This document shows, piece by piece, positions 23,531 through 58,700 of a DNA stretch of 64,000 bases (its first letter is position 1; each line of letters opens with the position of its first letter). Source of the DNA: Pseudovirgaria hyperparasitica. Taxonomy: Eukaryota > Ascomycota > Dothideomycetes > Acrospermales > Acrospermaceae. A program made the translations under genes and the position numbers. The stretch is from positions 1,150,133-1,214,132 of the forward strand of contig NW_022985553.1 in NCBI RefSeq assembly GCF_010093815.1, given 5' to 3'. The notes below the pieces were generated by a model, which saw nothing but the letters and a program-made list of their open reading frames with translations, was not told the origin of the DNA and ran no database searches.

Positions 23531-23539
23531 AAGCAAGAT

Positions 23540-33720: not shown

Positions 33721-34408
33721 TGTTTCAAAGAATGAGTTGTGATTGAGTGCTAAACGACACTGTGAAGCCAACTCTGGTTGCAATATAATCCAATGAGTAG
33801 GATAAGATACCTATACCAACCCCAGCCGTGTTGCAATCTCTCACTACATCAGCATAGAAAAACAACTAAGGTGATACAGGTCCATAGTGTATACGCATCC
33901 CATGGACCATGGGACACAGCCTGACAACCCCAGCCTGTGCCAGCGCAGAATGAAATATACCTAATGGTCGATCCTTTCTCCAACTAGCCTTCTCATTAAG
34001 CTAGCCTTCTCATGAAGGTAAGGCTCCGCTGGTGTCGGGTAGAACAGTATGCATGAATGAGTCTTTGTGAACTCTCTGTCGTGCCAGGTGTGTGCGACCG
34101 GAGATGCTCTAGCACATCAGCAGGGATCTATCACTACCCTGAAAATAGCGGTGCGTTGTGTGGTGCAAAGCTCCTAATGCCATGTAATGCATATATAACC
34201 ATCCTCATGGTCATTACCATCATAATTACACGGATAGGCACACACTCGTAATCGATAAGTGCACACATGCCCCCCCAACAATTACACGGGACACACACAC
34301 ACGCATATATGTCGTCAGCTAGCATCGAAGGTTTACCTTCTACTGTTTCGCGTGGAAATCTCCTGCTTCTCTCACCCGAGCATCGCAGAATCGAATACAG
34401 AACTGGAA
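33721..34408. other. Divergent promoter region
   Basis: Lies between the helicase gene (-) and the next gene (+). It has CA/CACA-rich simple sequence near 34257-34310 (ACACACACACACGCATATAT). No gene is seen. Confidence 0.4.
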
Positions 34409-41069: not shown

Positions 41070-41704
41070 TATTAGTTTTCCATCACTAAGCGTTGGCTAA
41101 GAGTATTTCTTGCAGAATGACATTTTACCACCGTCGCTCAGTGATGCCTTGATGTTTGTAAGCATTCAATCAATCTTAATGTCCTTTGGCCTTGTCGATC
41201 CCTCCTATACTACTCTGCTTCCTAATAGGGTAGATTTCATTGGCGTAGGGGAGCCGGAGCTGTCCTTAACTTCGGATGATGATTGATTCAAGAGGAGCTG
41301 GGGTTGCGGGAAATCGCGTGTTGTACAATAGCGAATACTACCCAGCCGCTATTCGTGAAACAAGACCCAGGTTATATTACAATCCTTGCACATATGTACA
41401 GATCTGGAACATGATCTCTTTCTGATTAGGACAGAATCCGTGCACTTTCATTACTGTATGATCTCATCTGTGTTATGGGGAGATCGGCATGCAGATTAGA
41501 CGTAGAGCGTGATATGCAAATGCCCTTTGCACCATGCGTCAGGACTCGTATCAAGATACGAGGTGTCTGGGCCGTCGCCTAGCCATTATGGGCCCCTTTT
41601 AATCGTGCTGGGCCCCAAGCAGAGCTTCGGCTAACCTTACACACACCTTGGCACACCGTACTCTCTTTCACCACCCATTCACTCAAGAACATTACCCTGA
41701 TAAC
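41046..41704. other. Intergenic region
   Basis: After the microsatellite no gene is seen. The region should hold the promoter of the 3CxxC gene. Confidence 0.35.
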
Positions 41705-42184
41705 ATGGCTCGAAATAAGCATCACAGGTCCCGTGGTACCAAGGCTACATACACGTTCACATCTCTTCACCAAAATATCCTTGAAGCCATATCATACGAT
41801 ATCAACCACGCCTGGTTTTGCGGGGCCAAGAATCGGCAGATTCCAGAAAACGAATATCAGACACATGTTATGGGCAAGTTTAGATGCGTCAATGTGGCCT
41901 GCGACGCTACATGTTGGAGTAGTAAGAAGGTGGCTATACTGATTCGAGGCTTCTCGAACAACGGCTACAACGCTGAAGTCTTTGGTCAGCGTTGTAAATC
42001 ATGCAATAATCTCGGCTTGCTGGAACTAGACGAGGAGTCTTACGTGGAGCGAGTGGCGTACAGGGTCAAAAAGTGGGCAGGAGTCCACGCGGAGCGTCCG
42101 GTATATAATGGAAAGGAAGGCCCGCCGCATGAGAGGAGTTTATGTGAAGGATGCAAGAGGGGGGTCTGCCGATTGGGAGACTAA
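41705..42184 (+). CDS. Small 3CxxC-type zinc-binding domain protein
   Basis: 159 aa, single exon, ATG at 41705 in good context (AACATGG). Cys motifs: CVNVAC then CWSS (residues near 60-70), CKSCNNL and CEGCKRGVC near the C-terminus, with HERSLCEGC before it. The arrangement GKFRCVNVACDATCWSSKKV ... FGQRCKSCNNLGLLELDEES ... YVERVAYRVKKWAG fits the zf-3CxxC domain, which is found in fungal proteins and in animal receptor-transporting proteins (RTPs). Several vertebrate RTPs, such as RTP4, are interferon-induced and bind viral RNA. That likeness makes this gene of interest here, although the domain is common in fungi and usually uncharacterised. The start is basic (MARNKHHRSRGTK), possibly nucleic-acid-binding. 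Confidence 0.75.
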   Translation: MARNKHHRSRGTKATYTFTSLHQNILEAISYDINHAWFCGAKNRQIPENEYQTHVMGKFRCVNVACDATCWSSKKVAILIRGFSNNGYNAEVFGQRCKSCNNLGLLELDEESYVERVAYRVKKWAGVHAERPVYNGKEGPPHERSLCEGCKRGVCRLGD

Positions 42185-42657
42185 CGGGACCAAGATCAAT
42201 GACTATGACATCGATCACACATGACTAACGAGCTATATGAAGAGGCAGGGTACAACACGAGACAACGGGAAAAGCTTTGGAAAGTGAAAAGACGCCAAAT
42301 GAAGAGACCTAAATCAATCAGGGGGAGGGATGTAGGGGATTTTCGGACGTGGGAGTCAGGTGAAGAGATTGGCCAAAGCTTAAATAAGTACACCAAAAGG
42401 TGTTTGCTTCTTCATGTTGGCTTGCTCGGATTTTGTTCCATATGACAGATGGTGGTTCCCTATGACACACAAAAAAACGCGCGATATTATGGAAGTTTAG
42501 ATTGCTACACACCTCTTGTTATTTCACAGTTCTGCAGTGGGTCATTTGTATGAGCCCTAGCCTTGCCCTCTCACACGTGTCGAACTGTGTTATTATTATA
42601 TAAATCGAAGACTCCATAACGAAAGACGCCTTTTCGACAGATTTCCAAGCTCATTAT
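42185..42657. other. Intergenic region with TATA box
   Basis: No gene is seen. ATTATATAAATCG near 42595-42607 is a good TATA box about 55 bases before the first ATG of the next gene. Confidence 0.4.
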
Positions 42658-43350
42658 ATGACAAGACTATCGACTTCAAAATATCTGTCTAGTACCATCA
42701 TGCCGACGAAAGCAACCAATCCCCCGAACATATACCTAATTGGTGCACAATGTACTGGAAAGACGACCCTGCTGGCAGCGCTACAAGCTTTCTTCTCTGA
42801 TCCCAACAACCGTACCAGAAGCGAAGCTGGAGCATTCGACCCTCCAGCTATAATCCCCGAGGTTGTACGCGAAGTCATGGAACTTGAAGGCTTCTCTGCC
42901 AGCGATATTAAGGATACCAGATGGCAAATCCTACAGCGTCTCACGCTGGAGGCGCAGTGTTTGGCCGAGGAAAAGCTCACCGACCAATGGTACATTTCTG
43001 ACCGTTCTGGATTAGACCCAATTATCTATGCACAACTTCAGGAGACGAACGACGCGCAGGCAATGAAAGAGTCAGCTAGCTGGGCGGCATCGCAGCAACG
43101 GATGAAAAATAGTCTCGTCATCCTATGTGAAGCTGGTAACCCAGACTGGTTCAAGTTGGACACTGCCCGAATCTCCCATTCGGAATCGCATAACTGGCAT
43201 AATATGCATACGAGATACATCACTCTTCTAGAGGAGACCGATATCAAATTTTTTCTCCTGGAAAAGTCAATTACGAAGATTGGTGAGAGGGTCAATTTCG
43301 TTATTCGGAAGTTTGAGAGAATGTACACCGAAACGGATACCAGTGCATGA
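42658..43350 (+). CDS. AAA_28/NadR-type P-loop NTPase or nucleotide/nucleoside kinase
   Basis: 230 aa, single exon. A second ATG at 42700 (MPTKATNPP) has better context and could be the real start. P-loop LIGAQCTGKTT lies at residues 28-38 (14-24 from the second start). A helix with EVVREVMELEGFSASDIKDT follows, then WYISDRSGLDPIIYAQ, which matches the DRSxxDxxxYA motif of the AAA_28/NadR group, where it helps bind the acceptor substrate. The lid-like part and FFLLEKSITKIGERVNFVIR close the fold. Relatives phosphorylate ribosylnicotinamide or other small molecules; here the substrate is unknown. The gene lies upstream of the UMP/CMP kinase-viperin pair and could contribute to nucleotide supply. 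Confidence 0.75.
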   Translation: MTRLSTSKYLSSTIMPTKATNPPNIYLIGAQCTGKTTLLAALQAFFSDPNNRTRSEAGAFDPPAIIPEVVREVMELEGFSASDIKDTRWQILQRLTLEAQCLAEEKLTDQWYISDRSGLDPIIYAQLQETNDAQAMKESASWAASQQRMKNSLVILCEAGNPDWFKLDTARISHSESHNWHNMHTRYITLLEETDIKFFLLEKSITKIGERVNFVIRKFERMYTETDTSA

Positions 43351-44277
43351 GACATAACGCAATCGGCTAGTCTTGTCAATATAGATTGCTTGTGTCATCT
43401 ACAAAGTGATCACGCCTGCAGGCCGCCAACTTGCCGTTAGGTTTTCTGACGAAAAAGGCTTACAGAGGACTTCTGCTTTATATAGAATTCAATCTCAAAT
43501 TCGTTTTTCGAGTGCTCTCCGCTTTCTGAGTCTAAAGAATGATGCTAGAAGTCTCCAACAGGTGCTGTTACCAACTGCTCTAAATCTATCTCACTAGCTT
43601 TGTGACTGAGGTCCATTAAATTAAGAACTATAAGGTACGTGCCATCCATTTTTCAAGACCTACTATCGTAATCAAATGACAATGCTTTATGGGGGCTAGG
43701 CTTCTCTATACTCTCGTGGCATTTAGAGACGTCGCCCACGTAGCGATGGATCATCGTGTCATGGTAAATCATAAGGCCATACATTATAGATCTAGTATAC
43801 GTCTCTATGGGACGATGCTTTTGTTTCTACATTGACTTCTAATTCTCTACCTTTCTCTGATAAACCTCAAACGTTTACATGATGGTTAGTGTCGTTATCG
43901 TAGCATATACTAATATAAGTCTTTCGACTTATGCAACATAGACTCTCGCATGACGGAGCTCTAGCGTCTAAATACAATTTTGGAATGTTAGAATCACATA
44001 GTTTGTACTGAAGTTTTAACATTCATGAAGTAATTAGAGCGTATGCTAATGTCCGAGTAGTAGTATAGAGGACTTGAATATGTGGTTTTACGAAACATAG
44101 CGGAGAAGAAAGTACTTTAATGGTTATTGTTCTTGTTCTCTAGGCTATTGGTAATAGACATCCTCATCGTCTCGACCCCTAGTCCATAGCATTTGCCTTA
44201 TGATTCGTTCAACGACATCATGATACGTTGTCTTCCAGTTTGCATAGCCTTCTCAATGTTCCTAAATTCTCCACGGT
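43351..44277. other. Convergent intergenic region
   Basis: No gene is seen between the 3' ends of the NTPase gene (+) and the NMP kinase gene (-). Confidence 0.4.
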
Positions 44278-44973
44278 CTAATTGTCACGGTCGGGATCAA
44301 GAACAGTCTCCCTAAGTGCCGATAACAGTTTCTGGTAGGTGGCATTAACATCACCACTTGAGTCGACCTAAACGTGAGTTAGTGATTGAAACACATGAGA
44401 AAAAGGACAACAAAGTCACCGTGACAAGAATTCCCCTATGATTATATTCCGCAAGGATCGGACTGTTGAGCCTAACGAACTCTTTGTATCTCTTCTTAAA
44501 AACGTCTGTTGTATCGTTACGTCCGGGGATGGCTCTGGTCAGATAACGCTGATGAACCAAAGGCTCTTCGCACTGAAGATGTAGCACCAGGTCAGGGGCC
44601 CTGAAACACTTTTCCATATGGAGAGCCTGGTTCAATTCCCGCGGAAAGCCGTCCAAAAGCACCACTTTAGCTCCGTTAGAGTAAAGGGTATTGATAGCTC
44701 TAGTCATTATTGGTTCTAGGTCCGTGATATCTAGTAGCTCGTTGTCGGCAATGCAATTCATGACTTCTTTGGAAATAGTGTCACTATCGGAAGCAACCAT
44801 CTCTCGAAGATGATCCCCGATCGACAAGTGGGAGTAGCCAAAATCATCTCTGAGTTTGTGGCAAAGGCTACCTTTGCCAGAGCCTGGGGCCCCTGAAAGT
44901 CCAAATTAATGAGTGTAACTTGGTGGACGGAAATCATATGCTTACCGATCACAAAGACAAGGTACTTCGTCAT
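44278..44973 (-). CDS. UMP/CMP-kinase-like nucleoside monophosphate kinase
   Basis: Model complement(join(44278..44367, 44420..44892, 44946..44973)), 196 aa, introns of 52 and 53 nt; the first splits the P-loop Gly codon. P-loop GAPGSGKG is at residues 10-17. LRDDFGYSHLSIGDHLREMV is the NMP-binding start. VVLLDGFPRELNQALHMEK carries the DGFPR motif. TRAIPGRNDTTDVFKKRYKE is the lid, with the GRxDD-like pattern and short lid typical of UMP/CMP kinases rather than long-lid adenylate kinases. It should transfer phosphate from ATP to UMP, CMP or a related NMP in the cytosol. It is divergent from the viperin gene across 665 bp, echoing vertebrate CMPK2-RSAD2, although CMPK2 belongs to a different kinase branch. 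Expected role: feeding CTP for viperin. Confidence 0.85.
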
Positions 44974-45638
44974 GTTTGATGAAAAATAAGTTTGAAAGAG
45001 GAACTGATTGGTAACGGAAATGGGATTGATTGATACTGCCAATCTTGTGAGGAGGTGACGTGTAAGAATAGAACGCCCAAATCGCGCTTGAGGATACTAT
45101 AATTTGAGTACGGACTGGGGTGTCGGGTAGAAACCAAGCAGAAGTGGAGCTCCCCGTAGGGGAAGGAAGGAAACTATAGAGCAGAATAGGCTACTTGCCT
45201 GGTGAAGAAGGTCTAAAACCTGTTTGTCAGCTGGAGCAGGGGAAGAGCATGAGCTCAAGTCGTACAAGATCAAGCTTACCGTCACGTTTGGTCATCTTTG
45301 CTATTCTGAGTGAAGCGCCGACAGAATTGGGGGCATGACAAGTAATGACGAGTGTACAATACCAGATGAACCTTTCTATGTTACAGCCGCAAACGTTTCT
45401 AACCTGAACAGTACTTATTGTGTTGGTTACGTTAGAGGATGACGTGCTATTGACGAAAGCTTTGGCAAGCAATCACTCTTTCTCTGCATGGTGTTTGGCG
45501 GTCAGATTACAAATCGTTCATCCTACACTAATGTGCGTGAAGCAAGAGATATATAATACTGTCCCTTGCCCAGAGGCCGGCGTTCTCTTGCTATATTGAC
45601 TTTGCGCCATCGAAGAACGATACACACTGAGCGTTTCC
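44974..45638. promoter_or_regulatory. Divergent promoter between NMP kinase and viperin genes
   Basis: A 665-bp space with no gene-like frame. A TATATAA box at 45550-45556 lies 83 bases before the viperin ATG. Divergent layout allows shared control of both genes; no regulator site can be named. Confidence 0.5.
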
Positions 45639-46664
45639 ATGAACACAATGATCTCAATTTATCTTGCTGGAGCGATCTTCTTCGCCGTCCTTCTCTCCAT
45701 CTTTCTCTTTCCAGGACACGGGCATTCGTCTGCACTTTGGTCTGTACATTCGAAGGTTAATTTGGATACGGACAGTGTACCGGTCTCCGTCAACTATCAT
45801 TTCACTCGAAAATGTAACATGACTTGCGGGTTCTGTTTCCACACTGCCACAACATCAGACATGCAGAGCACCGAAAAGGCTATGCAGGGTATCAAGGCCC
45901 TCAAAGACGCGGGGATGCGCAAAATCAACTTTGCTGGAGGCGAGCCATTCCTCTACCCAAAGTTCCTTGGGACGATCATCGATTACTGCAAAGATATCAA
46001 AGTTGAATCTGTCTCTATTGTCAGCAACGGCAGTAAGGTTACACGACGATTCCTCGAGAAGCACGGGAAGCACATTGACATCCTTGCCATTTCCTGTGAT
46101 TCATTCGACGAGCCGACTAATATCAAGATCGGTCGCGGAACAGGCAACAACGTAGAGCAGCTATACAGAGTCAAGGAATGGTGCAAGGAGTTTGGAATCA
46201 AGTTCAAGCTCAACACTGTAGTGTGCAACCTCAATTGGCAGGAGGATATGAACAAGCATATTTCGGCGCTGGCCCCCTTTCGGTGGAAATGCTTCCAAGT
46301 CCTCATCGTCAATGGAGAAAACGACTCACCCGAGCGACTACGTGACGCCACTAATTTTCTAATCACGAATGAACAATATCAGCAGTTCATCACAAGGCAC
46401 GCGGGTCAAAAGTCAATAGTTCCAGAATCAAACCGTGTCATGGCTAAGTCTTACCTTATCCTTGACGAATACATGCGGTTCCTGGATCGTGATGGACGGC
46501 AACCTTCCAAGTCTATCCTGGAGGTGGGGGTACAGAAAGCACTCAAGAGTGTCTTCTGGGACGTAGAAAGCTTCAAGGAGCGCGGAGGGATATATGACTG
46601 GCAGGCTACTGGCTCGAGTTGTGGCTCAGTTGAACAGAGTGACCAGAAGGAATTGGACTGGTGA
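45639..46664 (+). CDS. Viperin (RSAD2) homologue, radical SAM enzyme
   Basis: 341 aa, intronless. The N-terminus has a hydrophobic segment (residues 5-25), where animal viperins have an ER/lipid-droplet anchoring helix. Radical-SAM core: Cys59-x3-Cys63-x2-Cys66 (KCNMTCGFC) binds the 4Fe-4S cluster; KINFAGGEPFL (GGEP, 100-103) and SIVSNGSKV contact SAM. The viperin-specific parts LAISCDSFDEPTNIKIGRG, VLIVNGENDSPERLRDA, LDEYMRFLD and a C-terminal LDW, the end needed for Fe-S loading in animals, are all present. Known reaction: CTP to 3'-deoxy-3',4'-didehydro-CTP (ddhCTP), a chain terminator for viral RNA polymerases. Its neighbours make and turn over pyrimidine nucleotides. All catalytic features are intact, so activity is likely. 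It would need cytosolic Fe-S assembly. Confidence 0.93.
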   Translation: MNTMISIYLAGAIFFAVLLSIFLFPGHGHSSALWSVHSKVNLDTDSVPVSVNYHFTRKCNMTCGFCFHTATTSDMQSTEKAMQGIKALKDAGMRKINFAGGEPFLYPKFLGTIIDYCKDIKVESVSIVSNGSKVTRRFLEKHGKHIDILAISCDSFDEPTNIKIGRGTGNNVEQLYRVKEWCKEFGIKFKLNTVVCNLNWQEDMNKHISALAPFRWKCFQVLIVNGENDSPERLRDATNFLITNEQYQQFITRHAGQKSIVPESNRVMAKSYLILDEYMRFLDRDGRQPSKSILEVGVQKALKSVFWDVESFKERGGIYDWQATGSSCGSVEQSDQKELDW

Positions 46665-47697
46665 GCTTCTGTGCAAAACTCCGGAAGGGTATTTGACAGA
46701 CCGAGAACCGATCGAATCGGAATCGTGGAAGAAATAATAGTCCCTGCCACGATGATCGGGTCCATGAGTCCAGTGACAGCTTTTACTAGTGGCTAGTCTA
46801 CATGCGTATATTGTACACAGCGTTCCTGGGTTTGATATGGTAGCTAAACTTTGTTTCCACTGACTTTAGTGGGCTCATAGTCCAGTATTTGGTGCTCCCA
46901 TTGGATACCAATTTTGTAATGGCATAGGCTCTGGAGAGTCAAGCCAAGTAGTGACTTTTGAGCTATAGGTGATGAATCTACCGGTGTTGGTCAAGCTCTG
47001 TGTAATAGCGAGTCAATCTAGTGCGTTATTTGGGTGTGGGAGCTTTACAAACCATTATATTGCACGACTGGAAAGGGAGAGAGGTTATGGTCGGTTGAGT
47101 GAGTTTGCTTCTTCACGACTGTGAGACTCAACTTTGAGATTCTGCCTTGTTCACCACTGCGAGAAGTTGGCCGAATGTCTGGTGACAAGGATTTCGTCTT
47201 AGTCAATATCAAGCATCCCTGCTTTCCTTGCCGTTGAGATTGGATCAAACTCCGGAATGATGGAAATTTGTATAGCCTGTGACGGGTTTGATGGGCAGGC
47301 ATCCTACCACATTTGGCAAGAGCCTTGGTTTTCTATTGTTCCTTGTAATATCCGAGCCCATGAAGCTTAGACTGCGGGGGGCTGTGTTACATCCTGTAAG
47401 CTTCACTACCAACTGTTTGTGCGGCCCACTAGCCGGCTCATAAAGACCAATTTCAGCCATGCAGTTGTGACCAAAGCAAAGCTAGGCGCAGCATGGCAAT
47501 TCACAATTGCAAGCCAGTTGCATGTTTCCACCTTAAGAGTGTTTACCTGATCACACAAGTTCACGCACAAGGATCTATAAGAACTCTATGGTCCCCCATC
47601 CGCCCTCTATACTCCACCAATCCTCAACGTAAGGCTATCATCATCACATTCACACTTTTCAAGCCCTCTAGAATCCAAAGAAAGCTCGTACACAATC
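46665..47697. other. Intergenic region upstream of the kinase-HAD-UPRT gene
   Basis: No gene is seen. A TCTATAAGAA TATA-like box near 47573-47582 lies about 120 bases before the next ATG. Confidence 0.4.
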
Positions 47698-49707
47698 ATG
47701 TCTCTCGAGAAGCCTGTCATCATTGGCATCTATGGGCTACCTGGAGCCGGCAAATCATATCTCATGAGGCAGCTCAAGGAGAAGCTCAGTGAGACCGACT
47801 TCCTCTTCTTTGAAGGTTCGGAAGTGATTGCAACTTTAACCCCGGGAGGTCTCGATGCCTTCAAGCGACTCAGTCAGGAGGACCAGACCAAGTATCGACA
47901 TGCTGCGGGAATCTCTATCAAAGAGCAGTGCAAGTCTCTCAAAGCAGTCGGGGTTGTCACGGGTCACTTCATGTTCTGGAGTGGAGGTGAGGAGGAGGCG
48001 AATGAGGTCTGGACTGCTGCTGATGCAGAAACCTTTTCCCACATTATCTATCTGGACGAGATCACATCCGTCATCTCCACAAGACGACAGAATGACACTG
48101 TCAGAGACCGTGAAAATGTATGTCTCGACCATATCCACCGCTGGAAGGAGACTGAAGAGGATCGACTTCGCAAGCTCTGTGGAACCCACGGCATAATTTT
48201 CACCAGAGCCTTTCCTTATCCGGATATGCTACAGAGAGTCGTCCCATTGATTCAAGACTTCGCCACACATACGGAGGCTCGCAACCTTGAAAAGGCGTCT
48301 GCCAAGCTCGACATGGCCCTCTCTGAAAGTGATGGCAAACTCGACACACTTGTCGTTATCGACGGTGACAAAACTCTGGCTCCACAAGATGCTGGTCAGA
48401 TGTTCTGGGACCGCTACTGTATTCAGAAGCTGTCCTGGAAGGAAGCCTGGACCCCAACATCAGTTCATTCAGGGCCTCTTGGTTACTCATATGAGGCCTT
48501 CCGACAAGTCGCACTGCTTCATGATGAAGCACTTGGTCAGAAAGATTTCGACGATCTCTGCGACTCCATAGCGAAGGATGTTGACTGTCATCCTGAGTTT
48601 GTTTCCTTGCTCAAAGAGATATCCAACTCTACTCATACACGCGCAGTTGTTTTAACGTGTGGTCTGAGCCGCGTGTGGGAGACTGTACTGAAAAAGTTGG
48701 AATTAGGTGCCAAAGTCAACGTCATCGGTGGCGGACGGTTGTCCCATGATCTTGTAATCACACCAGAAGTCAAACGATCGCTCGTGCTTCATGCTCAGAA
48801 GCAGCGTGGTCTCTTCGTTGTGGCCTTCGGAGACAGTCCCCTCGACATACCGATGCTATGCCAGGCCGATAAAGCTGTTATAATTGTTGGCGACGAAAAA
48901 ACTCGAAGCCGATCTATGGATACTAATCTCACGTCTATTCTCGAGAATGATGAGTACAGGCTCAACGCTGTACAGATACCCCTGCCTCCAGAAGTAGTAC
49001 CACGTCTGGACGTGAACAAACTCCCAGTCATCAATTTCGACAACCTTGAGCTTAATCGCGCTATCTTCCATTCAGGTACAGGTCTTAAACTTCATCATGC
49101 GACATCCAATGCAGCCGCTAAAGTACTTGCGACATCAATGCGAGATGCATCTGTCGGCGGTCCAGAGCTTCGCGAAAGACATCGCCGAGCAGGATTCTAC
49201 TTGGCCGCCCAATTCGTGTCCAAGATCGTTGGACTTGAGGAATGCGAGATCCGACATGTACTCGGTCATCAAGACCACGGTTATTGCCTCCTTCATGAGA
49301 GAAAGACTCTAATTGTCCCCCTGATGCGTGGAGGAGAACCGATGGCCTTTGGTGTGAACGATGTCTTCCCGAAGGCTAGTTTCGTCCACGCTAAAAATCC
49401 ACCCGATATCACTGAGCTTCATCTACAGGATTGCTCTACCGTAATTTTAGTTGACTCCGTTATCAATACCGGAAAGTCTCTCGTTGAATTCGTTACCCAT
49501 GTCCGCGGTATCAACACCAAAGTCCGCATAGTAGTAGTCGCAGGGGTGATCCAGGCCGATGCGATTGCGAAGAGTAGTCTTCTTGCTGAGCTCCCTAAGG
49601 ACTTCCGTCTCGAAGTCATTGGCTTGCGTCTTTCTAAGACGAAGTTCACTGGACAGGGAACTACCGACACTGGGAACCGCTTGTTCAACACCACTCACCT
49701 CGACTAA
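47698..49707 (+). CDS. P-loop kinase - HAD phosphatase - uracil phosphoribosyltransferase fusion
   Basis: 669 aa, intronless. Three enzyme domains. Residues 1-195: P-loop kinase, GLPGAGKS (13-20), with IIYLDEITSVISTRRQNDT and HIHRWKETEEDRL as substrate and lid parts. Residues 215-440: HAD-type phosphatase with VVIDGDKTLAP (Asp222/Asp224 nucleophile and acid), VVLTCGLSRVW as motif II, and FGDSPLDIPM as the metal-binding motif. Residues 455-669: UPRT-type phosphoribosyltransferase with LRERHRRAGFYLA, LIVPLMRGGEPMAFGV and the PRPP loop VILVDSVINTGKS (582-594). UPRT joins uracil to PRPP, giving UMP. The kinase and HAD parts may act on the same nucleotide or a nucleoside. The fusion could salvage uracil or recycle products in step with the UMP/CMP kinase and viperin nearby. 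Substrates of the first two domains are not readable. Confidence 0.85.
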   Translation: MSLEKPVIIGIYGLPGAGKSYLMRQLKEKLSETDFLFFEGSEVIATLTPGGLDAFKRLSQEDQTKYRHAAGISIKEQCKSLKAVGVVTGHFMFWSGGEEEANEVWTAADAETFSHIIYLDEITSVISTRRQNDTVRDRENVCLDHIHRWKETEEDRLRKLCGTHGIIFTRAFPYPDMLQRVVPLIQDFATHTEARNLEKASAKLDMALSESDGKLDTLVVIDGDKTLAPQDAGQMFWDRYCIQKLSWKEAWTPTSVHSGPLGYSYEAFRQVALLHDEALGQKDFDDLCDSIAKDVDCHPEFVSLLKEISNSTHTRAVVLTCGLSRVWETVLKKLELGAKVNVIGGGRLSHDLVITPEVKRSLVLHAQKQRGLFVVAFGDSPLDIPMLCQADKAVIIVGDEKTRSRSMDTNLTSILENDEYRLNAVQIPLPPEVVPRLDVNKLPVINFDNLELNRAIFHSGTGLKLHHATSNAAAKVLATSMRDASVGGPELRERHRRAGFYLAAQFVSKIVGLEECEIRHVLGHQDHGYCLLHERKTLIVPLMRGGEPMAFGVNDVFPKASFVHAKNPPDITELHLQDCSTVILVDSVINTGKSLVEFVTHVRGINTKVRIVVVAGVIQADAIAKSSLLAELPKDFRLEVIGLRLSKTKFTGQGTTDTGNRLFNTTHLD

Positions 49708-49825
49708 GCATCACGTCATTAGGAGTTGCAACGAGATCACTTCTAGATCGGGCTATTGACTGGTTCGCAGGATATGGTGATGTCTTCGTATCTATCATTC
49801 TATATCGTCTCTCCGTAGAGATAGA

Positions 49826-50305
49826 CTAAGGAAATAAAGGCCAAATGCGTCTCAAGCGTCGTGCAACTGTGACAAACTCCTGCACGTCCATTTCATGCCG
49901 ACGTGCAACTGCCTCCAGCTTTTCATCCTTGCTCGCGTTCGTGACTTCGTTCACAGCTCCCTTTCGACCACTTTTGCAAAGCCAGGCTGTCATTTTGTAA
50001 AATCCGTATCGAGAAGTGTATTTGGCGACCATGTACAGATGTACTAAGGAAGGACGAAGGTTGTCATTGAACTGGGGCTGAGAAAGATCGAATCCATCGT
50101 GGCGTGCGCGATACACCAAGAAGATGACATCGCTCGTCTCGCTGTACTTCTCGAGTCGGGTCTGAGCTTCGTGTAGCTCTTCAACTTCCTCGTGGAGGCG
50201 ATTCTGGTGCCATGACAAGTCAGACTGTCGAGGAAGCTTGAGAATTGATAACCATCGCATGAAGATGCGTTCTTTGAGCGATTTGTAGGAGGATATCGGG
50301 CGCAT
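49826..50305 (-). CDS. MazG-like NTP pyrophosphohydrolase (fungal family)
   Basis: 159 aa from the ATG at 50305; the frame is open further upstream but without an ATG. Glu39-Glu40-x2-Glu43 (LHEEVEELHE) and Glu56-x2-Asp59 (SETSDVIFL) give the EExxE...ExxD metal site of the all-alpha MazG/dUTPase-like pyrophosphohydrolases, with 12 residues between the halves. LYMVAKYTSRYGFYKMTAWL and VARRLRRIWPLFP at the end match a widespread fungal family I recall with the same SLKERVFFRWL...SDVFF layout. MazG-type enzymes cleave NTPs to NMP and PPi, often removing modified or excess nucleotides. Its 3' end faces the kinase-HAD-UPRT gene at 118 bp. A housekeeping or nucleotide-limiting role beside ddhCTP production is plausible, not shown. 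Confidence 0.72.
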   Translation of the reverse strand: MRPISSYKSLKERIFMRWLSILKLPRQSDLSWHQNRLHEEVEELHEAQTRLEKYSETSDVIFLVYRARHDGFDLSQPQFNDNLRPSLVHLYMVAKYTSRYGFYKMTAWLCKSGRKGAVNEVTNASKDEKLEAVARRHEMDVQEFVTVARRLRRIWPLFP

Positions 50306-52577
50306 CGTGGCTGTAGGGGACCTCGGGTGGGTAGAGCACAGGAGCAATGGTGAGAACGTCGTTGACAGGATGATTGGGAGGCTAGTATGACACTCTCAAA
50401 GGGCGAGTGGGATGGGTCTGATACGCATGAAGAATTTGTCCGTTTATGAATGAAGCAAGGGGTACGTCATGTGATCGTACTCCCTTTCAACACCATCAGA
50501 ACTTTTCACAGGTCTCCTTCACCGTTACGAAAGTCTCACGATGTAGCAACTTCAGTGACCCGAAAAAGTGTGACTGGTGGTACAAAATTGCCAAGGGCAT
50601 GATTGTGGGGTCGCATCATCTCGAGAATCTACAGCAACGCAGTGCAATCGTGATAAGTCCCCCCCGAGTATGCTTTCAATATCATTAAATCCACGTCTCC
50701 CAAGGATAGAAATCTCCAGATATGTAAAGCTCACACCCATCTCCCTTTTGCAATGCCTATTAATGACCTTTTGACCCTTAGAAGAATTCCACGATAGCGA
50801 AACTGCCTGAAATACCTCGCTACTGACTTCATGTGTGCAGCCAGGAGGTCTATGGTGTTACAGGATGACCGAACTACGTTTTCATAGCCTAAAGCCTCAC
50901 TCTTCTGCATTTAATATGGCCAGATACAAACGTAGTGCTCAAATATCAAGCTCATCAATCGTCTCACCAGCATACATGTAGTACTCAAGCGAAATTTCCT
51001 TGGAGTAGTATCCATAAATTTTCAGTAAAGATGTCGTTGTATAGCATGAAACATGCACAGCCTTGCTTATCTACAGCCTGCCGTCCTGTTTGATGGTTAT
51101 GCACGAGCCTATTGTCGCTGGTATTCGAGAAGGTCAAATTGACAAAAACAGAAGTACGAATCACTCACTGGACCTACAGCAGTTCGTCGGTGGGCATCTT
51201 GGACCCCCTAACCAGATGAGGAAATCTTAGATGGTTTAGGAGCTCATGAGTTCTGCATCCCCATTATGTTCAGATGAAAGGGAAGTGATGTGTGATACGG
51301 CGAGGCGTTGTGCATTGGCATACATCTTTTCCGGAAAGTCTGTCCGACAGAGTCGATATCTGAAAGTTGACGCTTATTGAATCAAACTGATGAAGTCATA
51401 AGTTCAATAATTGAGTTATGAACGCTATAGAAGTCTATAGCCCAAAATCGGCGAGCACAATCGCCATGTCACCACTTGCTTTCTACGGCTGTCTTGTGCC
51501 GTGAGTCGAAGACGACGATAATCCTCTTCTTTCCTTCTATCATGGCTATAGGAGTGCAGAACTGTTGAAGATATCGTGCTTGCCCAGGAATTTGTAGGTC
51601 GTCCATCCTGACAATGGGTGGTGGTCTAACTGAGTCCGTATGATTGAAGCTAGGCTTAATTAGGATCTATTAATTCATCCCTTTAAGGCCCCGAAATGGA
51701 TTCCGAGCCTGCCCAGCTCTGATTGAATTCCTTTGCTGCAATTCTTAGCTACCTTAGCTACCACAACTGATTACGGCGGAAACGATAAGTCCTGGTCTTG
51801 TTGGTCTCCTTCGATGACGCGGCATGCGTCACATGCTCGCTTAACGCAGAAGTTTACGTTGATGTCTCGCAAGTCATGAAAGACGCAGCGCGACGCGACC
51901 CAGGCCGCGACCATCTTCTGCAGAGTGCCCCGATGGTCGAGGTGGGCCAGATCCTGGGTTTGCTCTATGGACACGCGCGAAAGTTTCACGTGTCGTACAG
52001 GTGAATAGCAATAACAGCGTGTCTGCCTTACCGTGCGCCACGACCGCCTTCCCTGGTACATTAAGCACACCAACGTCATCAGTGCAGCGACTACCTGTAT
52101 AACGAATTAAGTATGAGCAAGCAAGGCTGTCTCAAGATACCGTACGGCGTTTTAGCGTCCCCGGACCGCTGCTTTGCAGTCATGCAAGAAAGCCATCACT
52201 TGTATCGATTGGGTATGAGCGCTTCGGGTAGAGGTGATGCGCTTCACTCTTGATTGATTAATTAATCAAGGTCAGCGAGAAGCTCACATGGAAGTCATGC
52301 GCATTGGCTTAGTGTCTACATGACCATTGACACGTCTGGGGGCTCAACATGTTAGAGGCAGCCAAACATAGAAACGAGGGCTGAGTGGCAGCTACGACAC
52401 ATGCAGCCCGCCATACAGCTGGCCATTGCACAGCCTGTTGGCAATATCAGACAGCATATGTAGGATGCCCGGTCCAACCATCCACTGTACGTATTGTCGA
52501 TGCTCTTTTACAGCTAAGACAGCGAAGAGACCTGGCCCCAGAGCAGATCTTTACTATTTTCCGGAGTCAAACTCAAG
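50306..52577. other. Intergenic region, 2.3 kb, gene-poor
   Basis: No intact gene. The palindromic string GATTAATTAATC is at about 52255-52266. A short decayed retroelement-like piece (listed separately) lies in its right half. Confidence 0.35.
51480..52079 (-). mobile_element. Possible fossil of a Ty3/Gypsy-type LTR retroelement (pol/integrase part)
   Basis: On the minus strand short stretches resemble the zinc-binding and core start of a retroelement integrase. It is a small, old, heavily broken remnant with no recognisable ends or LTRs. The family call is tentative. Confidence 0.25.
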
Positions 52578-53710
52578 ATGAAAGCCGAGCTCATGCATAC
52601 GGAAAGCCACAAGGCTATGGTGGAGATATGTGATTGGAGAGCTGAGATCATCTCAACCTTCATTCGCGAGCGTTCGACAGTCTTCAACGAACTAATGATA
52701 TTGAGAAAGAGGGTGAGACGCTTTTTAAGCCCTTAATGATGTATCTGATTCATTGATAGGGTTGGGAAAACCCTGCAGGGGACACGTTCTTCAAGAAACG
52801 ACGTCAAGTAGCTGACAATGCCGACGCAAAAACTAAGCTTGCGTTTTTGAACATAATGCAAGAAATTGCTGAACAAATGGACGCCAAGATGGATATCATA
52901 GGGAACAATGAAGCTACCCGCCGAGAGTTTCACATACTGGATCTTTGTCTAGCGCCAGGTGGTTTTGCAAAGTATTTCAAGAATTCCATCCCGAATTCGA
53001 AGGTATGGGGGTTCAGTCTTCCAAAATCATCTGGTGGTCATGAGGTGTTGCTCGATCTACGACAAAATTGGCTAGAAGTCACGTTTCAGGACGTTACTAT
53101 GCTGATGGACGAGATCCTTGGAGGCGCGAGCGATCAATCAGAGTCTGTAAAGGATCATATTGAAGCTGAGCAGCTTCGAAGCCAATGGCCCTACTCCACG
53201 CAAAAATTTGACTTGGTCATCTGTGACGGACAAGTACTTCGGACCCATCAGCGGGCAGAGTATCGACAGTCCAGCGAGCCTAAAAGGCTTGCCTTGAGTC
53301 AGTTGATAATAGCCCTGCAGAGGCTCACTCCTGGCGGAACACTGATTATGCTGCTTCATAAGATAGAAGCGTGGGATAACATTCAAGTCCTGTCTACCTT
53401 TCAACAGTTTTCAGACATCTGTTTTTTCAAGCCCAAGCCATATCATGCTATACAGTCCTCATTCTACCTAGTGGCAAAGAATGTGAGATCCGAGAGTAGC
53501 GCTGCCTTGGACGCAATCATGAAGTGGAGAGAAGCCTGGAAAGCTGCTACCTTTGAAGGCCCGTTGACTGAATATGACACAGAGGAGGAGATCATGAAGG
53601 TCTTGGGGAATTTTGGGGATGCTTACGTCAAGATGGCTGAGCCAGTCTTTGAAATCCAGAAACTCGCGCTGGAGCGATCTAGCTTCTGCAAGGCACGACC
53701 TCTCAAATGA
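52578..53710 (+). CDS. FtsJ/RrmJ-like SAM-dependent methyltransferase
   Basis: Model join(52578..52712, 52760..53710), 361 aa, one 47-nt intron (MILRKR|GWENPAGDTF). The first ATG in frame is at 52578; a stop lies upstream. HILDLCLAPGGFAKYF (103-118) is the SAM-binding motif of the FtsJ family (VLDLCAAPGGF in the prototype). DLVICDGQVL (196-205) supplies the motif-IV Asp, and LLHKIEAWD carries Lys246, so the central part of the FtsJ K-D-K-E tetrad is present. QLIIALQRLTPGGTLIMLLH is the usual strand-turn before it. FtsJ enzymes 2'-O-methylate ribose in rRNA, tRNA or mRNA caps, and this fungal clade is uncharacterised. In this neighbourhood an RNA-marking role is attractive, but the substrate is unknown. 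No targeting signal is obvious. Confidence 0.82.
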
Positions 53711-54325
53711 ATCATGAACTCAGAGTTGAAACACATTCCCGTAGTTAATACTTCCTACTTCGCTGTATACACCACTTCTGACCTGGGAAGTCGGACATGT
53801 ATCAACCATATCAGGGTCCTTTGAGTTTCGCAATCAAAGCGTGCACGTAGATTAGGCTACGAGACTAACATTTTGCAGTGCAACTATTCACTGCCAGAGC
53901 TAACGAGAGATGATTTGCAAATCAAGACAACACTGAAATTATAGATACAACCCAAGATTGTCATGAACTGGGCAATCAGATTGGCTGACGCTACATTCGC
54001 TGATCTGCCTAGCATGGGCCCTGACAATTTATTACACCCGATACTAAAATAAGAGTCTAAGCTCAGAAAAAAAGATCAGGATTGTTGAATGATGTGCCTG
54101 TGACCGTGCCAGTGGGCCTGGATGTATGTAGGATCTGTATTTCGGAAGCTATGGGGCAGTCTCCCACAAGCGTGACGACCTCATCTCAACCCATCCATCT
54201 CTATCTCAACACCCGTAACAAGAGTCGCATATATTGCTACTCGTCGCACACGTTCATATAAAGTAACATAATCTCCACCCCAGCAGCCGAACATCGCTCG
54301 ATGTTTGTTGCATATCTCGTAAGCC
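53711..54325. other. Convergent intergenic region
   Basis: No gene is seen between the 3' ends of the methyltransferase gene (+) and the IFI6/IFI27-like gene (-). Confidence 0.4.
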
Positions 54326-54731
54326 CTAGGCCCAGCGCCAGAAGCGCGCTGCAAGTTGTCCACCGCGCACCACCGCATTACCTCCAACGATGACTCCCTG
54401 GGTGATCAACCCTGCAGTCGCAGTCCCAGCTCCTCCCATAGCAGCGCTTTGGGCCACAGCAAAGATGCTGCCGGTCGCCGTAGTAGCGGTCTGGCAACCA
54501 GCTGCGATGGAGTCTATTCTGTCCTAAGCTGCCGTGCATATTATTGAGAGATGAGGAGCACTTACTTGCGATTGGACCCGCGACTCCAAAGCCTACTGCG
54601 CCCAGTACTGGTGTAAAAACCACAGATGGCGCGATAATTGCGACTCCTTGGGCGGCGTATAGGGCGGTCCTCCCAGGATTTTCGACGATGTAGTCTCCGA
54701 CGGTCTTGCCTGCTGCGAGAATAGACTCCAT
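54326..54731 (-). CDS. IFI6/IFI27 (ISG12)-like small membrane protein
   Basis: Model complement(join(54326..54513, 54566..54731)), 117 aa, one 52-nt intron (GPIA|NSIAAGCQTATT). After a short amphipathic start (MESILAAGKTVGDYIVENPG) come hydrophobic Ala/Gly-rich segments: GVAIIAPSVVFTPVLGAVGF, GVAGPIANSIAAGCQTATTA, GSIFAVAQSAAMGGAGTATA and GLITQGVIVGGNAVV. The LGxxGFGxAGPIAxSIAA core and GxxFAxxQSAAMGGAG block are the Ifi-6-16 domain signature of animal IFI6/IFI27 proteins, which are interferon-induced, sit in ER or mitochondrial membranes and affect virus replication and apoptosis. The length matches the family (about 110-130 aa). Fungal members exist but their role is unknown. Splicing is needed to keep the signature; the unspliced frame loses it at once. 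Confidence 0.82.
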
Positions 54732-55761
54732 TGAGCTGAGTAACAGTGAAAAATTCTAGAGGTACTGACAATGACGAATTGAGCAGAGTGCGTTGCAGAA
54801 AAACGCGAGGAGAATGCTCTATCTGGATTAAGTGTGGTGGGGAATGTGCAGTTACACAGCCACAATACTTTCCAGAGGAACGTAGACCATTCAATATCAT
54901 GCAGCAAAAAGAGGACCTTCTTAAGCGACCGGTGCCTAATTGTGGCACATGCGTCGCTATGGACGTATGGTGCTGGTCCAGGTGTCAAGGCAAAGAAGCA
55001 CCATGGAAGCCTTGCGCAGTGCATTAATTGTACACATCATCAGCTTGACGACAAGCCTATTGGCAGTCGTAGGTACCTCAGACCCGAAATATGAAGCTTC
55101 CGATGGTATTTCCAATCATACAGTCCTGTACACTCGCTTCCATGCGAGGATTATCCCAGCAATCAAATCAAGATGTCGATGTTTTCTTTTTCCCAATTAC
55201 CATGCAAGTCGCACATCGATCTGTGCCCGGAAGTAAGCTTGGACGAAGAGTCGTGTTACGCATCAAAACGTGTCGGTGCTTTTTCCTAACTGCTTCTCGA
55301 ATTCTTGTATCCTTTTGTTGGGCGGTTTAGGATCTTATGATTTGAATTCGGGTTACACCACAACACTTTAAAGCTTCAGCTCGTATCGTTTGAGTCTCTG
55401 AAGCGACGTCGGTACCCACAACTCACCTGGAGATTCCGTGCAATTCACTTGTTGAAGATCAAATATAGTACCTGCTCAATTGCTTGTAGAACATCAAGTG
55501 ATTCACTGGCTCGGGATCTCCTTATAACCGGTCGAATGCAAAGACCTGCTCATTTTTTAGTGGTTTATATCTTTTCACCTAGAATCTGTGCGTTATTTAT
55601 TCACTGCGCCCCTGTTCGTGGCGTAGCACGCAAATATATTCTTCAGGCTCACCTTTTAGAACTCATCAGAGTTTTCTCACTACCCTTTCCGAAAATCTTT
55701 AGTCAAACTGTATCAAGATTCAATCTTCCATTGACTTGTCCTTATTCGAAATCTTGACACG
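54732..55761. other. Divergent intergenic region, about 1 kb
   Basis: Holds the promoters of the IFI6/IFI27-like gene (-) and the DUF6606/DUF3638 gene (+). No gene is seen; small frames on both strands lack features. Confidence 0.4.
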
Positions 55762-58700
55762 ATGGAAAGCCGTTTCGTCCCTGGTAGGCTCTCAACCGAG
55801 AGTCTCCAACACATCATCAATCATGTTTTCTTGCCTCCGAAGCTTCCACAAGAGGATGATCTCTCCGTAGACAATGACCTCAAACTTATCACTGCTGTCC
55901 TAGAAGCCCTAAAGGACTTTTCGGTGTGTCTCAATGACCTTGAGGTATCGGCTACCTTAAAAATAACCACCAGCATGATCGACCGGATGATATCTGCGGC
56001 ACCAAATGGAACACCTCTGGAAAATCTGGTCGAGAAGCAGATGAATAGTATGATGGTAAACGGTATGTAAATCCCGCTGATGTTGTCCCTCACACTCGAT
56101 TATTCAGCTTATGACCGGAACAGATGTGTTAGCATTCAATGTGAAGGCTCAGAATGCAGCGCTCCTGATACGTTGTCACGAATCAAAGTACATCTTTGAG
56201 GCCTTTGAGGTTTCGTGTCCAAACGCGAGTGTTACAGGAACTAAGGGCCGCCTGAACAGAATCTTCCCGCAAGAAGCCATCATGATCTCTTCTAGCATCA
56301 TGAGCGATCCAGCATTTCGGCTGCCGTTCTCTGATATGCTTGTTGATTTGGCTAAAACGACACCTGAAGACGCCTACAAGATTTCCCGGAAGGCTCAACG
56401 TAATCTACCAGAAATACGAGACGTAATTGATCCCCGATACTTTACTGAGCTCGCATTCGGAATACTTCGTGGCATAGGCACTCCAGTAGAGATTCCACGC
56501 ATTGAAAAGCGGGCCCAAGACGAAGTCCTCTGGTCAGACACTTATTGCTGCTGGCGGAGGTCACCATTGTGGACCGTGCTACGTGTAAGTTATCACTCTA
56601 AGCACTGATGCAGTCAAAGAAGCTGAACTAATCCATGCTATCTAGGTCGCTATTCAGACTACCCTCATGCGACAGATTGGTCCAGATCGTGGCTGCGCAG
56701 TGTACAAGGCATTCATGATCCATTTCATGACCCGGCTGCTCATGCAAGCGACACGTGGCAACATGTGTAGCGATATTCTTTATACAATGCATAGAAAGAT
56801 TGTTCGACGGTTGCATAAGTTATCCGAGATGAACGAAACTGAGTCCTTCACTTCACTGGCAGGTAAATCTACATGGGGTTCGCATATTGAGAATACCATT
56901 GAAGCCAGCTATAAGGCTTTGAAATGTAGATGGCATCAGTTGGAATCATGTGCCGATCCTTTCAAGACGCAGAGTGCCTGGGATGTATCACGGTTGTCGT
57001 TCCAGGATGATACATATCTCAAGATCAAGACTCTGAGATCGTCTCTCGACGCGGTGTTACACCGTCCACCCCAGAGCTATAACACAAGGGAAGCTGATAT
57101 CGGATTTTCCGCCCGCATCTCTAAGATCCCAAACTCCTTGCCTAATATAAATGCATTGGCACAGTCAACTGGTCAAGCACAGCGCATCCTACTGTGCGAT
57201 ATTGAAATGTGGATCCAGGATTGCCTGGTCGACTGGACAGACTGCAACTTGAGCAAATCAGACGTCTGCTCCGATCTTGCCACACTGATGACTGCATATT
57301 CAACAGCCGGTCGAGCCTGCTATGTCGATGACCAGGAAGGGCTCTCGCGAATGTTTCTTGTCGTTATGGAGCTTTGGGTGTGTCTGGATAGAATTGTCAC
57401 TAGACACGAACCGATGCTGCTTGATCATCCAATAGGTTTCGCGCCAGATCTGTTTGATCCTCTTCTCCTGCCTTCGAAGTCTCAAATGGCAAGACTTGCT
57501 GCTGTTGAAAGCTATCTGACTTCGAGACGTCAGAGCTGCCGTGCCCAGTATCCTTCTATATTTAATGCCTTTGGCGATAGTAATTCTTTGCCTGTTCGGT
57601 ATTTTGACGGGTCTGAGAAGCACCAAGAGCTACACAGAACCATCGAAAGAGAAGCCAATACTGTCCGAGCAAGCAGGTTAGAACTTTTCCGAGCAGAACG
57701 TCACCGCTACAACGACTTGTCAAGGAAAGCTAACCAGGCTTCCCATGAACGAATTCAGAAGTCGGGATGGGACTGGTACAATGAGGAGACCATAAGCTGG
57801 GAGGAGAATGCTTGCCCTCATTGCCAAAAATGCCGGTGGGAGAAAGAAGCCGCAGGATTAAAGATTAGACGACATGAGTGGCCTTTGCCATCCAAATTAG
57901 CGGAAGCCAAAACAGCTGTCTTCGAGCTAGATTGTCCTAAAGCGATCAGTGTATGGAGGGACATGACCTACTTTGTTATGGTTGACGTCCTCACAAGTCC
58001 CCAGAACTTGCCACGCGATGTTCCAGCCACTGGAAAGTATGGACTGGAAAATTACGACGCATTGCGGGCTCATTTCATCTCGGACCAGAACCGCATTGTC
58101 ATCAGGTCTGCCACGAAACCGATTCATGTATCGCATTACCGAGACGCAGATATTTCAAGTGCTACAGAACAGTCGATATGCGTCGAGCACGCGATGCAAT
58201 ACGATATTCATGATTCTAGAAACGAGAAAGCTGCACATAAGTTTATCGGGTACGCGGATGTTCGCAAAGCATGTTCGCAACCAATAATGGACAAGAACTA
58301 TGAAGGCTTACAGTCCTGGGTTGACAACACGACGCATCAACCCAATGAGGTGATTGCGAAGCAGTCAGAGTGTCCGCTCGAATTGTCTGTTCATGAATAC
58401 CTCTCGTTTGGACACCTCCGCTCTGGTCCCTATCTACAGTGGCATAACATTGCGCGGGCGCTGATCGACGGCACCTTGAACTTTAATACAGAAGCAGTGA
58501 GTGTTATCCTTGCCCAATGCGCATGGCAGGCTGGTCCATGTTGCGCTGAGGATGATCCAACCATGCGGGCCTCCCATGGAACGCTAAGCGCTCCCCCTTT
58601 TTGTCTTGACCTGCTTGATGCTCTCGAGGAGCTTTTGTCCAACACAAAAGAGAATTGGCAAGGTATCATGTCCATTCAAATCCTTGTCACCCTTACAAGC

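Follow-up and report, generated by a model that had tools for sequence, protein, structure and literature searches.

A viperin gene and two divergent kinases in the fungus Pseudovirgaria hyperparasitica: a viperin–kinase unit that appears to recur in some other fungi

In the human genome, the viperin gene RSAD2 and the gene for CMPK2, a kinase of the thymidylate-kinase family, are arranged head-to-head. Prokaryotic viperins are found beside a kinase or fused to one, according to the PADLOC model descriptions (PDLC02904/02905). In animals more generally CMPK2 adjoins RSAD2, and one study reports it as a supplier of CTP, describes an extra N-terminal domain, and finds its kinase domain dispensable for its anti-Zika effect (PMC10150978). 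A fungal viperin, TtRSAD2 of Thielavia terrestris, dehydrates CTP, UTP, and 5-Br-UTP in vitro, and the same paper puts forward a natural-product role for a fungal viperin as a hypothesis (PMC9642334). Fungal viperins have so far been studied as enzymes; among the papers listed in a literature search there was neither a report of their working partners nor a gene-neighborhood analysis. Another described fungal system makes cordycepin, a 3′-deoxynucleoside, from a cluster that includes the kinase-phosphoribosyltransferase fusion Cns3 and the phosphohydrolase Cns2, the need for Cns3 in heterologous synthesis being described as unconfirmed in a review (PMC8719641).

We analyzed a 64,000-nucleotide stretch (the window) of the genome of Pseudovirgaria hyperparasitica, in which positions 42604-54731 hold seven genes, viperin among them. 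An earlier note, made from the letters of the sequence, had described a seven-gene cluster around an intact viperin, and Pfam, family profiles, and gene models confirmed it. Pfam matches in the cluster are solid for AAA_28 (1.5e-20), ADK (2.1e-24), Radical_SAM (5e-18), and FtsJ (1.1e-13). The 35 Mb genome contains four ADK-family loci, two AAA_28 loci above cut-off, and four UPRT loci above cut-off, and one locus of each family lies about 3 kb or less from viperin, measured between gene edges. The housekeeping ADK-family loci and the remaining UPRT loci are on contigs other than that of viperin. The proximity of viperin, ADK, AAA_28, and UPRT is more than chance, an exact figure being weakened by the fact that the families were chosen after being seen. 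The GC content of the cluster (47.2%) is 1.3 sd below that of 16 sampled stretches (50.6%, sd 2.6), a deviation that gives no clear sign of foreign DNA. A bacterial promoter scan was uninformative for a fungus.

The viperin gene (45639..46664, plus strand) encodes a radical-SAM nucleotide dehydratase of 341 aa, recognized by family profiles and by the [4Fe-4S] motif CNMTCGFC, with a hydrophobic N-terminal segment and the C-terminus LDW. It scored 264.3 bits against NF038283 (cut-off 180) and 365.9 bits against TIGR04278 (E 1.9e-109), the latter below the cut-off of 450. C59, C63, and C66 are invariant across 22 aligned rows, comprising the window protein, its GenBank copy, and 20 relatives. 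Among the best 120 of 2563 homologs, identity was 57-72% to 119 and 96% to the fungus's own GenBank copy; that GenBank model, P0001, omits about 12 residues behind the N-terminal segment, where the DNA frame is open. The top PDB match was 6b4c (446.7 bits), which we take to be the viperin of Trichoderma virens. Viperin is single-copy, one of seven radical-SAM loci in the genome, and by its sequence features it is an intact enzyme.

Divergent from viperin, with the two starts about 666 bp apart, lies the gene for a URA6-like NMP kinase of 196 aa (44278..44973, minus strand). Its three exons (44973-44946, 44892-44420, and 44367-44278) give a deduced protein identical to the P. hyperparasitica database protein P0199. 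The frame is PF00406, and no PF02223 match was found in it at E<=0.01; a relative, P0202, matches PF02223 at 21.3 bits, below the cut-off of 27. This is the fourth ADK-family locus of the genome. The other three, on contigs C6, C14, and C21, we take to be URA6, ADK1, and ADK2, named by motif, and with these present a housekeeping role for the window copy was rejected. It is 28% identical to the fungus's own URA6 and in BLAST scored 103 bits against URA6, 52.8 against ADK2, and 39.7 against ADK1; URA6 was the top match among the three housekeeping kinases for all four queries shown. Against the PDB, the family profile placed yeast uridylate kinase 1uky (160.1 bits) above AK1 (153.9), whereas the single sequence placed AK1 (98.4) above 1uky (87.8). 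On the proposal of a plain adenylate kinase the searches divide, BLAST and the family profile leaning toward URA6 and the single sequence toward AK1.

Like fungal URA6, the window kinase has a short LID. Where the fungus's own URA6 has LSAGD, presumably the NMP base pocket of URA6-type kinases, all nine members of the window family have LS[IV]GD. The UMP/CMP-kinase-like identity originally suggested for this protein is favored by BLAST and, narrowly, by the profile, and not by the pocket motif or the single-sequence search. In an 11-row tree, calculated with the fragment P0207 left out, the kinase and seven relatives form a single long-stemmed clade (100/97) separate from the fungus's URA6, ADK1, and ADK2; its placement as the sister of URA6 depends on rooting at the midpoint, and two of the three outgroup rows are incomplete. 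Homologs are scarce: 9 of 182 candidates reached E<=1e-10, the window protein counted, and six of the eight others come from named fungi.

On the other side of the NMP kinase is a NadR/Ttd14-like AAA_28 kinase of 216 aa (42700..43350, plus strand), for which an upstream ATG at 42658, the start given in the earlier note, is an alternative. It matches the AAA_28 profile PF13521 at 74.5 bits (cut-off 27), and a profile search gave a weak match to the NadR kinase 6gye (E=1.4e-4). The kinase belongs to a small divergent group of 11 rows separated from 69 main rows at 100/98 in a tree in which P0121 and the P0078 tail are long branches. G[AP]QC[TA]GK[TS] and DRSGLD are present in 10/10 rows of this group, a count that excludes the tail from Alternaria panax, which has no P-loop. 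DDG[VT]R occurs in none of these 10 rows (two are too short to show it) vs. 58 of 68 main rows; the fungus's own paralog on C9, which makes the 69th main row, also lacks it. In these trees and alignments, both window kinases are divergent paralogs and not the housekeeping copies that they might have proved to be.

Of 2563 viperin rows, the top 120 served for comparison with other fungi. NMP kinase homologs come from six named fungi, and in all three that could be checked the kinase and viperin are on contigs of equal size: Aspergillus alliaceus (P0201 and P0063, 374160), Trichoderma ghanense (P0202 and P0075, 735599), and Trichoderma citrinoviride (P0206 and P0077, 393417). The linkage is at the level of a shared contig (0.37-0.74 Mb), which falls short of adjacency, and with two of the three species belonging to Trichoderma, it covers just two lineages other than that of the window. 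Most named fungi among these viperin rows have no listed NMP kinase, so the kinase is either not universal beside fungal viperins or was missed by a search needing shared 5-mers. For the AAA_28 kinase, the viperin gene model P0078 of A. panax runs on into an AAA_28 piece whose six top matches all fall in the window kinase's 11-row group (the best at 49% and 45%). When the 120 viperin rows were compared with seven window neighbors, a set from which the IFI6-like protein was absent, only P0078 bore a real piece; a match of P0086 to the kinase-HAD-UPRT protein (E=0.034) was taken as noise. Three of 77 non-self AAA_28 rows (P0129, P0146, and P0186) are on a contig sized like that of a viperin. P0129, a member of the window group, pairs with viperin P0025 in a metagenome (contig size 6543 each). 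The P0146/P0089 pairing is coincidence, because 1499 bases cannot hold both genes. P0186, a main-clade row, is on the 5.44-Mb contig of the A. panax viperin yet distant from it by tag (01616 vs. 00031), and the main-clade AAA_28 row of T. ghanense is on another contig (size 2336577) than viperin.

A conserved antiviral viperin among unrelated genes, linked to kinases elsewhere by coincidence, would fit the contig-level nature of the linkage and the placement of AAA_28 upstream of viperin in the window and downstream in A. panax. However, for a genome of 30-40 Mb each of the three exact contig-size matches within a species has a chance of ~1-2% under random placement, and two kinase groups are tied to viperin separately; we regard such a chance neighborhood as quite unlikely. 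On the strength of the NMP kinase linkage and the A. panax gene model, the viperin–kinase unit looks conserved in some fungi. The conservation of neighborhood raised in the earlier note finds support for the two kinases compared, for one through contig sizes in 3/3 checkable fungi and for the other through one gene model and one metagenomic pair.

We consider it rather probable that the fungal module is a maker of ddh-nucleotides with dedicated kinases beside it. Intact enzymes, divergence of the kinases, and their recurrence with viperin in some fungi are all legible in the sequences. Viperin would produce 3′-deoxy-3′,4′-didehydro nucleotides (ddhCTP and/or ddhUTP), which would terminate or disturb viral RNA synthesis, and the URA6-like and NadR-like kinases would feed pyrimidine di- and triphosphates to viperin or keep its product phosphorylated. 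These kinases would be dedicated and fast-evolving, analogous to the RSAD2-CMPK2 arrangement with different kinase families. We infer this order of reactions, and the module may be co-regulated and antiviral.

Downstream of viperin, a single open frame of 669 aa (47698..49707, plus strand) joins a P-loop kinase (AAA_17), a HAD phosphatase, and a uracil phosphoribosyltransferase (UPRTase E 6e-40, 137.4 bits vs. a cut-off of 27; PDB match of this part to 1o5o, E=3e-7). It is single-copy, and its motifs are intact: the P-loop GLPGAGKS, DGDKT and GDSPLD of the HAD domain, the PRPP motif ILVDSVINTGKS, and the GQGTTDTGNRLFNT loop. This fusion is a candidate member of the module, probably adding pyrimidine salvage or nucleotide dephosphorylation. 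A small single-copy protein of 159 aa (49826..50305, minus strand) with an EExxE...ETSD motif is possibly of the MazG/HisE superfamily of all-alpha NTP pyrophosphohydrolases; its PRA-PH match (E=0.018, 15.8 bits) is under the cut-off of 21.3, the PDB gave nothing better than E=0.33, and a single-sequence model was all-helical with a mean pLDDT of 53, too poor for a fold search. Beyond it are an FtsJ-like methyltransferase (52578..53710, plus strand; exons 52578-52712 and 52760-53710), recognized by the FtsJ profile, with an uncertain start and one paralog (37%) on C6, and an IFI6/IFI27-like protein of 117 aa (54326..54731, minus strand; exons 54731-54566 and 54513-54326) that matches PF06140 at E=1.2e-4 and 22.3 bits, below the cut-off of 29.1. 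The viperin-centered pathway first proposed for these genes is supported in part: its viperin–kinase core appears to recur in some fungi, the MazG and IFI6 matches fall under their profile cut-offs, and a route from uracil to ddhCTP across the cluster would be a conjecture from gene content.

Given LS[IV]GD in place of LSAGD throughout the NMP kinase family, and next door a HAD domain whose motifs are intact as well as a candidate NTP pyrophosphohydrolase, the kinases could instead act on the product and rescue, recycle, or detoxify ddh-nucleotides, for example by phosphorylating ddhNMP or ddhNDP. We hold this to be unlikely: the MazG-like assignment is tentative, and the CMPK2 of animals reportedly acts as a CTP supplier (PMC10150978). 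In a variant, the kinases together with the HAD and MazG-like proteins would clear ddhNTPs, sparing fungal polymerases.

P. hyperparasitica is a hyperparasite, that is, a mould living on other fungi. That habit, as its name conveys it, would suit a ddh-nucleoside natural product made in the manner of cordycepin, in which viperin forms the 3′-deoxy sugar, HAD releases the nucleoside, and the kinase and phosphoribosyltransferase supply or protect. The hypothesis voiced for a fungal viperin (PMC9642334) points the same way, as does the theme shared with the Cns1-Cns3 cluster of a kinase-phosphoribosyltransferase fusion and a phosphohydrolase in 3′-deoxynucleoside chemistry. The domain types differ, however, being HisG and HDc for cordycepin and UPRT and HAD in the window; the accessible text names no radical-SAM enzyme for cordycepin and leaves the Cns3 requirement unconfirmed (PMC8719641). 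No transporter or oxidoreductase domain was found among the cluster frames submitted to Pfam, and we judge this product improbable.

Returning to the ddh-nucleotide maker with its own kinases, a larger version is speculative and rather doubtful: a self-contained fungal ddh-nucleotide immune (or nucleoside-toxin) pathway within a larger eukaryotic defense island, assembled separately from animals. It would comprise viperin, the two kinases, the kinase-phosphatase-UPRT fusion, and the possible NTP pyrophosphohydrolase, which would make, balance, and clear ddhCTP and ddhUTP. The lookalikes of interferon-stimulated genes in such an island would be a ZNFX1-like helicase, an OTT_1508 deaminase, a 3CxxC zinc ribbon, and the IFI6-like protein.

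If the unit proves recurrent, it would name partners for tests of antiviral defense in tractable fungi such as Trichoderma, offer enzymes for ddh-nucleotide production, and turn the loose questions of whether viperin acts against mycoviruses in fungi, and through which nucleotide, into specific genes to examine. Bacteria, animals, and fungi would then all couple viperin to a kinase, having arrived at this through different kinase families.

The window viperin shares its enzyme family with the characterized fungal viperins, 6b4c and TtRSAD2. Among 19 non-fungal loci with neighbor frames listed (16 of 30 prokaryotic loci fetched, plus 3 viral), a kinase lies beside viperin at two, L044 and L052; five neighbor frames submitted to Pfam gave two thymidylate kinases, one ORF6C, and two without a match. 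Viral contigs provided 14 viperin loci, of which three have a near-full-length match (32-35% identity). The L044 and L052 kinases are Thymidylate_kin (PF02223), downstream on the same strand, whereas the fungal ones are PF00406, divergent from viperin, and PF13521. Vertebrate RSAD2-CMPK2 resembles the window in having a nucleotide kinase directly beside viperin, but its kinase is of thymidylate-kinase type, and the window partners are a small ADK/URA6-type kinase and a NadR-like kinase. The pairing of viperin with a kinase is already known; the fungal form looks new in using other kinase families, and it may be that viperin in fungi, as in animals and bacteria, is tied to a nucleotide supply of its own.

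The earlier note claimed a cluster of seven genes, and reading frames together with Pfam matches confirm that gene set, with two names that are weak. The host genome comprises 35.0 Mb in 59 contigs, and the window is part of contig C5 (1,869,782 bases). Reading frame and Pfam evidence identify a NadR-like AAA_28 kinase (PF13521; 42700-43350, + strand), a three-exon ADK-family kinase (PF00406; 44278-44973, − strand; hereafter NMP kinase), viperin (45639-46664, +), a P-loop kinase-HAD-UPRTase fusion (47698-49707, +), and an FtsJ methyltransferase (52578-53710, +). Of the two weakly named genes, that at 49826-50305 (−) encodes a small protein bearing a MazG-like motif, its sole profile match being a sub-threshold one to PRA-PH (E = 0.018), and the other encodes the IFI6/27-like protein (54326-54731, −), which scores below the family cut-off.

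Viperin is intact, with 109 invariant columns, including the three cluster cysteines, in an alignment of 22 rows (the window protein, its GenBank copy P0001, and 20 relatives). Its best solved relative is 6b4c (446.7 bits), and it is the sole viperin among seven radical-SAM loci in the genome. The window protein matches P0001 of the dothideomycete Pseudovirgaria hyperparasitica at 96%; the GenBank model omits ~12 residues past the N-terminal hydrophobic segment, where the frame is open. The search retained 2563 of 4183 candidate proteins at 1e-10, and the organism-named rows among the best 120 of these matches are all fungal. According to prior work cited by Culbertson and Levin, fungal and animal viperins form one clade, separate from the bacterial proteins (PMC10732462).

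The NMP kinase, identical to P. hyperparasitica protein P0199, is one of four ADK-family loci in the genome; the others, on contigs C6, C14, and C21, we take from their motifs to be URA6, ADK1, and ADK2, respectively. In a tree of 11 rows (fragment P0207 excluded; ADK1 and ADK2 rows incomplete), it forms a single clade with seven relatives (100/97) on a long stem, and ADK1/ADK2 are separated from the remaining rows at 100/99; a position as sister to URA6 depends on midpoint rooting. Its kinship appears to lean toward URA6 by BLAST and profile and toward AK1 as a single sequence. URA6 was the closest of the fungus's own housekeeping genes (103 bits vs. 52.8 and 39.7), and a profile of eight NMP kinases searched against the PDB placed yeast uridylate kinase first (160.1 bits), narrowly ahead of AK1 (153.9), whereas the single sequence favored AK1 (98.4 vs. 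87.8). All nine NMP kinases carry LS[IV]GD where the fungus's own URA6 has LSAGD, and because this is presumably the NMP base-pocket position, the substrate may have shifted relative to URA6.

Those nine proteins, including the fungus's own, were the matches at 1e-10 among 182 candidates scored, in a search blind to relatives without common 5-residue words. The eight non-self proteins comprise six from named fungi and two metagenomic rows, and linkage was compared in the three of six named fungi with a same-species viperin among the best 120 of 2563 matches. The NMP-kinase and viperin contigs agree in length to the base in Aspergillus alliaceus (374160), Trichoderma ghanense (735599), and T. 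citrinoviride (393417), the two Trichoderma species being non-independent cases. With genome sizes of 30-40 Mb assumed, random placement of the kinase on such a contig has a chance of ~1-2% each. Judged from contig sizes, this shows linkage of the NMP kinase with viperin at the same-contig level, short of adjacency. For T. reesei, the kinase row is from RUT C-30 (contig 882497) and the listed viperin row from QM6a (longest of two contigs 891309); for T. longibrachiatum and Bipolaris maydis, an NMP kinase is listed and no viperin row so named occurs among the best 120. Most fungi named among those 120 matches have no listed NMP kinase, which counts against generality.

For the NadR-like kinase, 78 proteins including the fungus's own were found at 1e-5 among 369 candidates. 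An 80-row tree combined these with the fungus's C9 paralogue and with the P0078 tail, an AAA_28 kinase piece without a P-loop that directly follows viperin within one gene model of Alternaria panax (P0078). A 69-row main clade was split (100/98) from an 11-row group that unites the window kinase with P0129, the P0078 tail, and eight more rows; P0121 and the tail sit on long branches, making their exact placement unsure. The six best BLAST matches of the tail all belong to the window kinase's group (P0126, 49%; P0130, 45%), and the tail is 38% identical to the window kinase vs. 31% to P0186, the other A. panax AAA_28 protein. The motif DDG[VT]R is found in none of 10 group rows (two too short) vs. 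58 of 68 main rows, and is also missing from the C9 paralogue. The family is present in many named ascomycetes, mostly with DDG[VT]R, and we know of no role for it.

Among the best 120 viperin matches, a contig size is shared with 3 of 77 non-self AAA_28 rows. P0129 and viperin P0025 lie on contigs of the same size, 6543 bases, with room for both genes. The P0146/P0089 match (1499 bases) was rejected as coincidence because 1659 coding bases exceed the contig. P0186 and P0078 share A. panax contig 5441918 and are far apart, given locus tags 01616 vs. 00031; contig-sharing therefore differs from adjacency. The T. ghanense AAA_28 row, in the main clade, is on contig 2336577 and its viperin on 735599.

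The kinase-HAD-UPRT fusion is single copy, with three other UPRT loci above cut-off in the genome, and keeps the expected motifs in all three domains. It could convert uracil to UMP, but removal of phosphate from nucleotides by its HAD domain is also conceivable. The cordycepin cluster offers a loose parallel: its description, for a 3′-deoxynucleoside, includes a kinase-phosphoribosyltransferase fusion and a phosphohydrolase, the requirement for the fusion in heterologous synthesis being unconfirmed there (PMC8719641).

An OTT_1508-like deaminase domain (38430-39458, +; PF14441, 1.2e-18), one of four such loci in the genome, lies ~3 kb from the viperin cluster. The NadR-like kinase is preceded, at a distance of ~0.5 kb, by a 3CxxC zinc-ribbon gene (41603-42184, +; PF13695, 2e-23), one of two in the genome; the vertebrate antiviral protein RTP4 carries a domain of this type. 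On the minus strand, 26400-33810 encodes a large AAA_11/AAA_12 helicase followed by several AAA modules; it has cysteine-rich stretches and resembles a fungal ZNFX1/NFX1-type helicase fused with CbbX-like AAA domains. A giant protein with DUF6606, DUF3638, and DUF3645 (55735-64000, +) extends past the window end. The stretch 20001-24000 is AT-rich (39.6% GC), with a composite RIP index of +0.14 vs. negative values in 16 of 16 sampled genome stretches, and is perhaps a mutated repeat at an island border.

The enzymes are present and intact, the kinases are divergent, and kinase and viperin are linked at the contig level in some other fungi; of the viperin pathway proposed in the earlier note, the core of viperin with partner kinases gains comparative support, and the seven-gene pathway is still hypothetical. 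Most likely, the kinases would maintain a local CTP/UTP pool, or one of phosphorylated product, for viperin, and we infer catalysis, expression, and an antiviral effect. In mammals, RSAD2 is reported to adjoin and be co-transcribed with CMPK2, which is said to provide CTP; in that study, the CMPK2 kinase domain was found non-essential against Zika virus (PMC10150978). A Thymidylate_kin gene is directly downstream of viperin in at least 2 (L044 and L052) of 19 prokaryotic and viral loci with neighbours listed. The fungal partners are instead from PF00406 and PF13521, and the label CMPK2 was rejected for them because they lie outside the thymidylate-kinase family. With partners of these other families, the window viperin-kinase unit would function like RSAD2-CMPK2 and the prokaryotic pairs.
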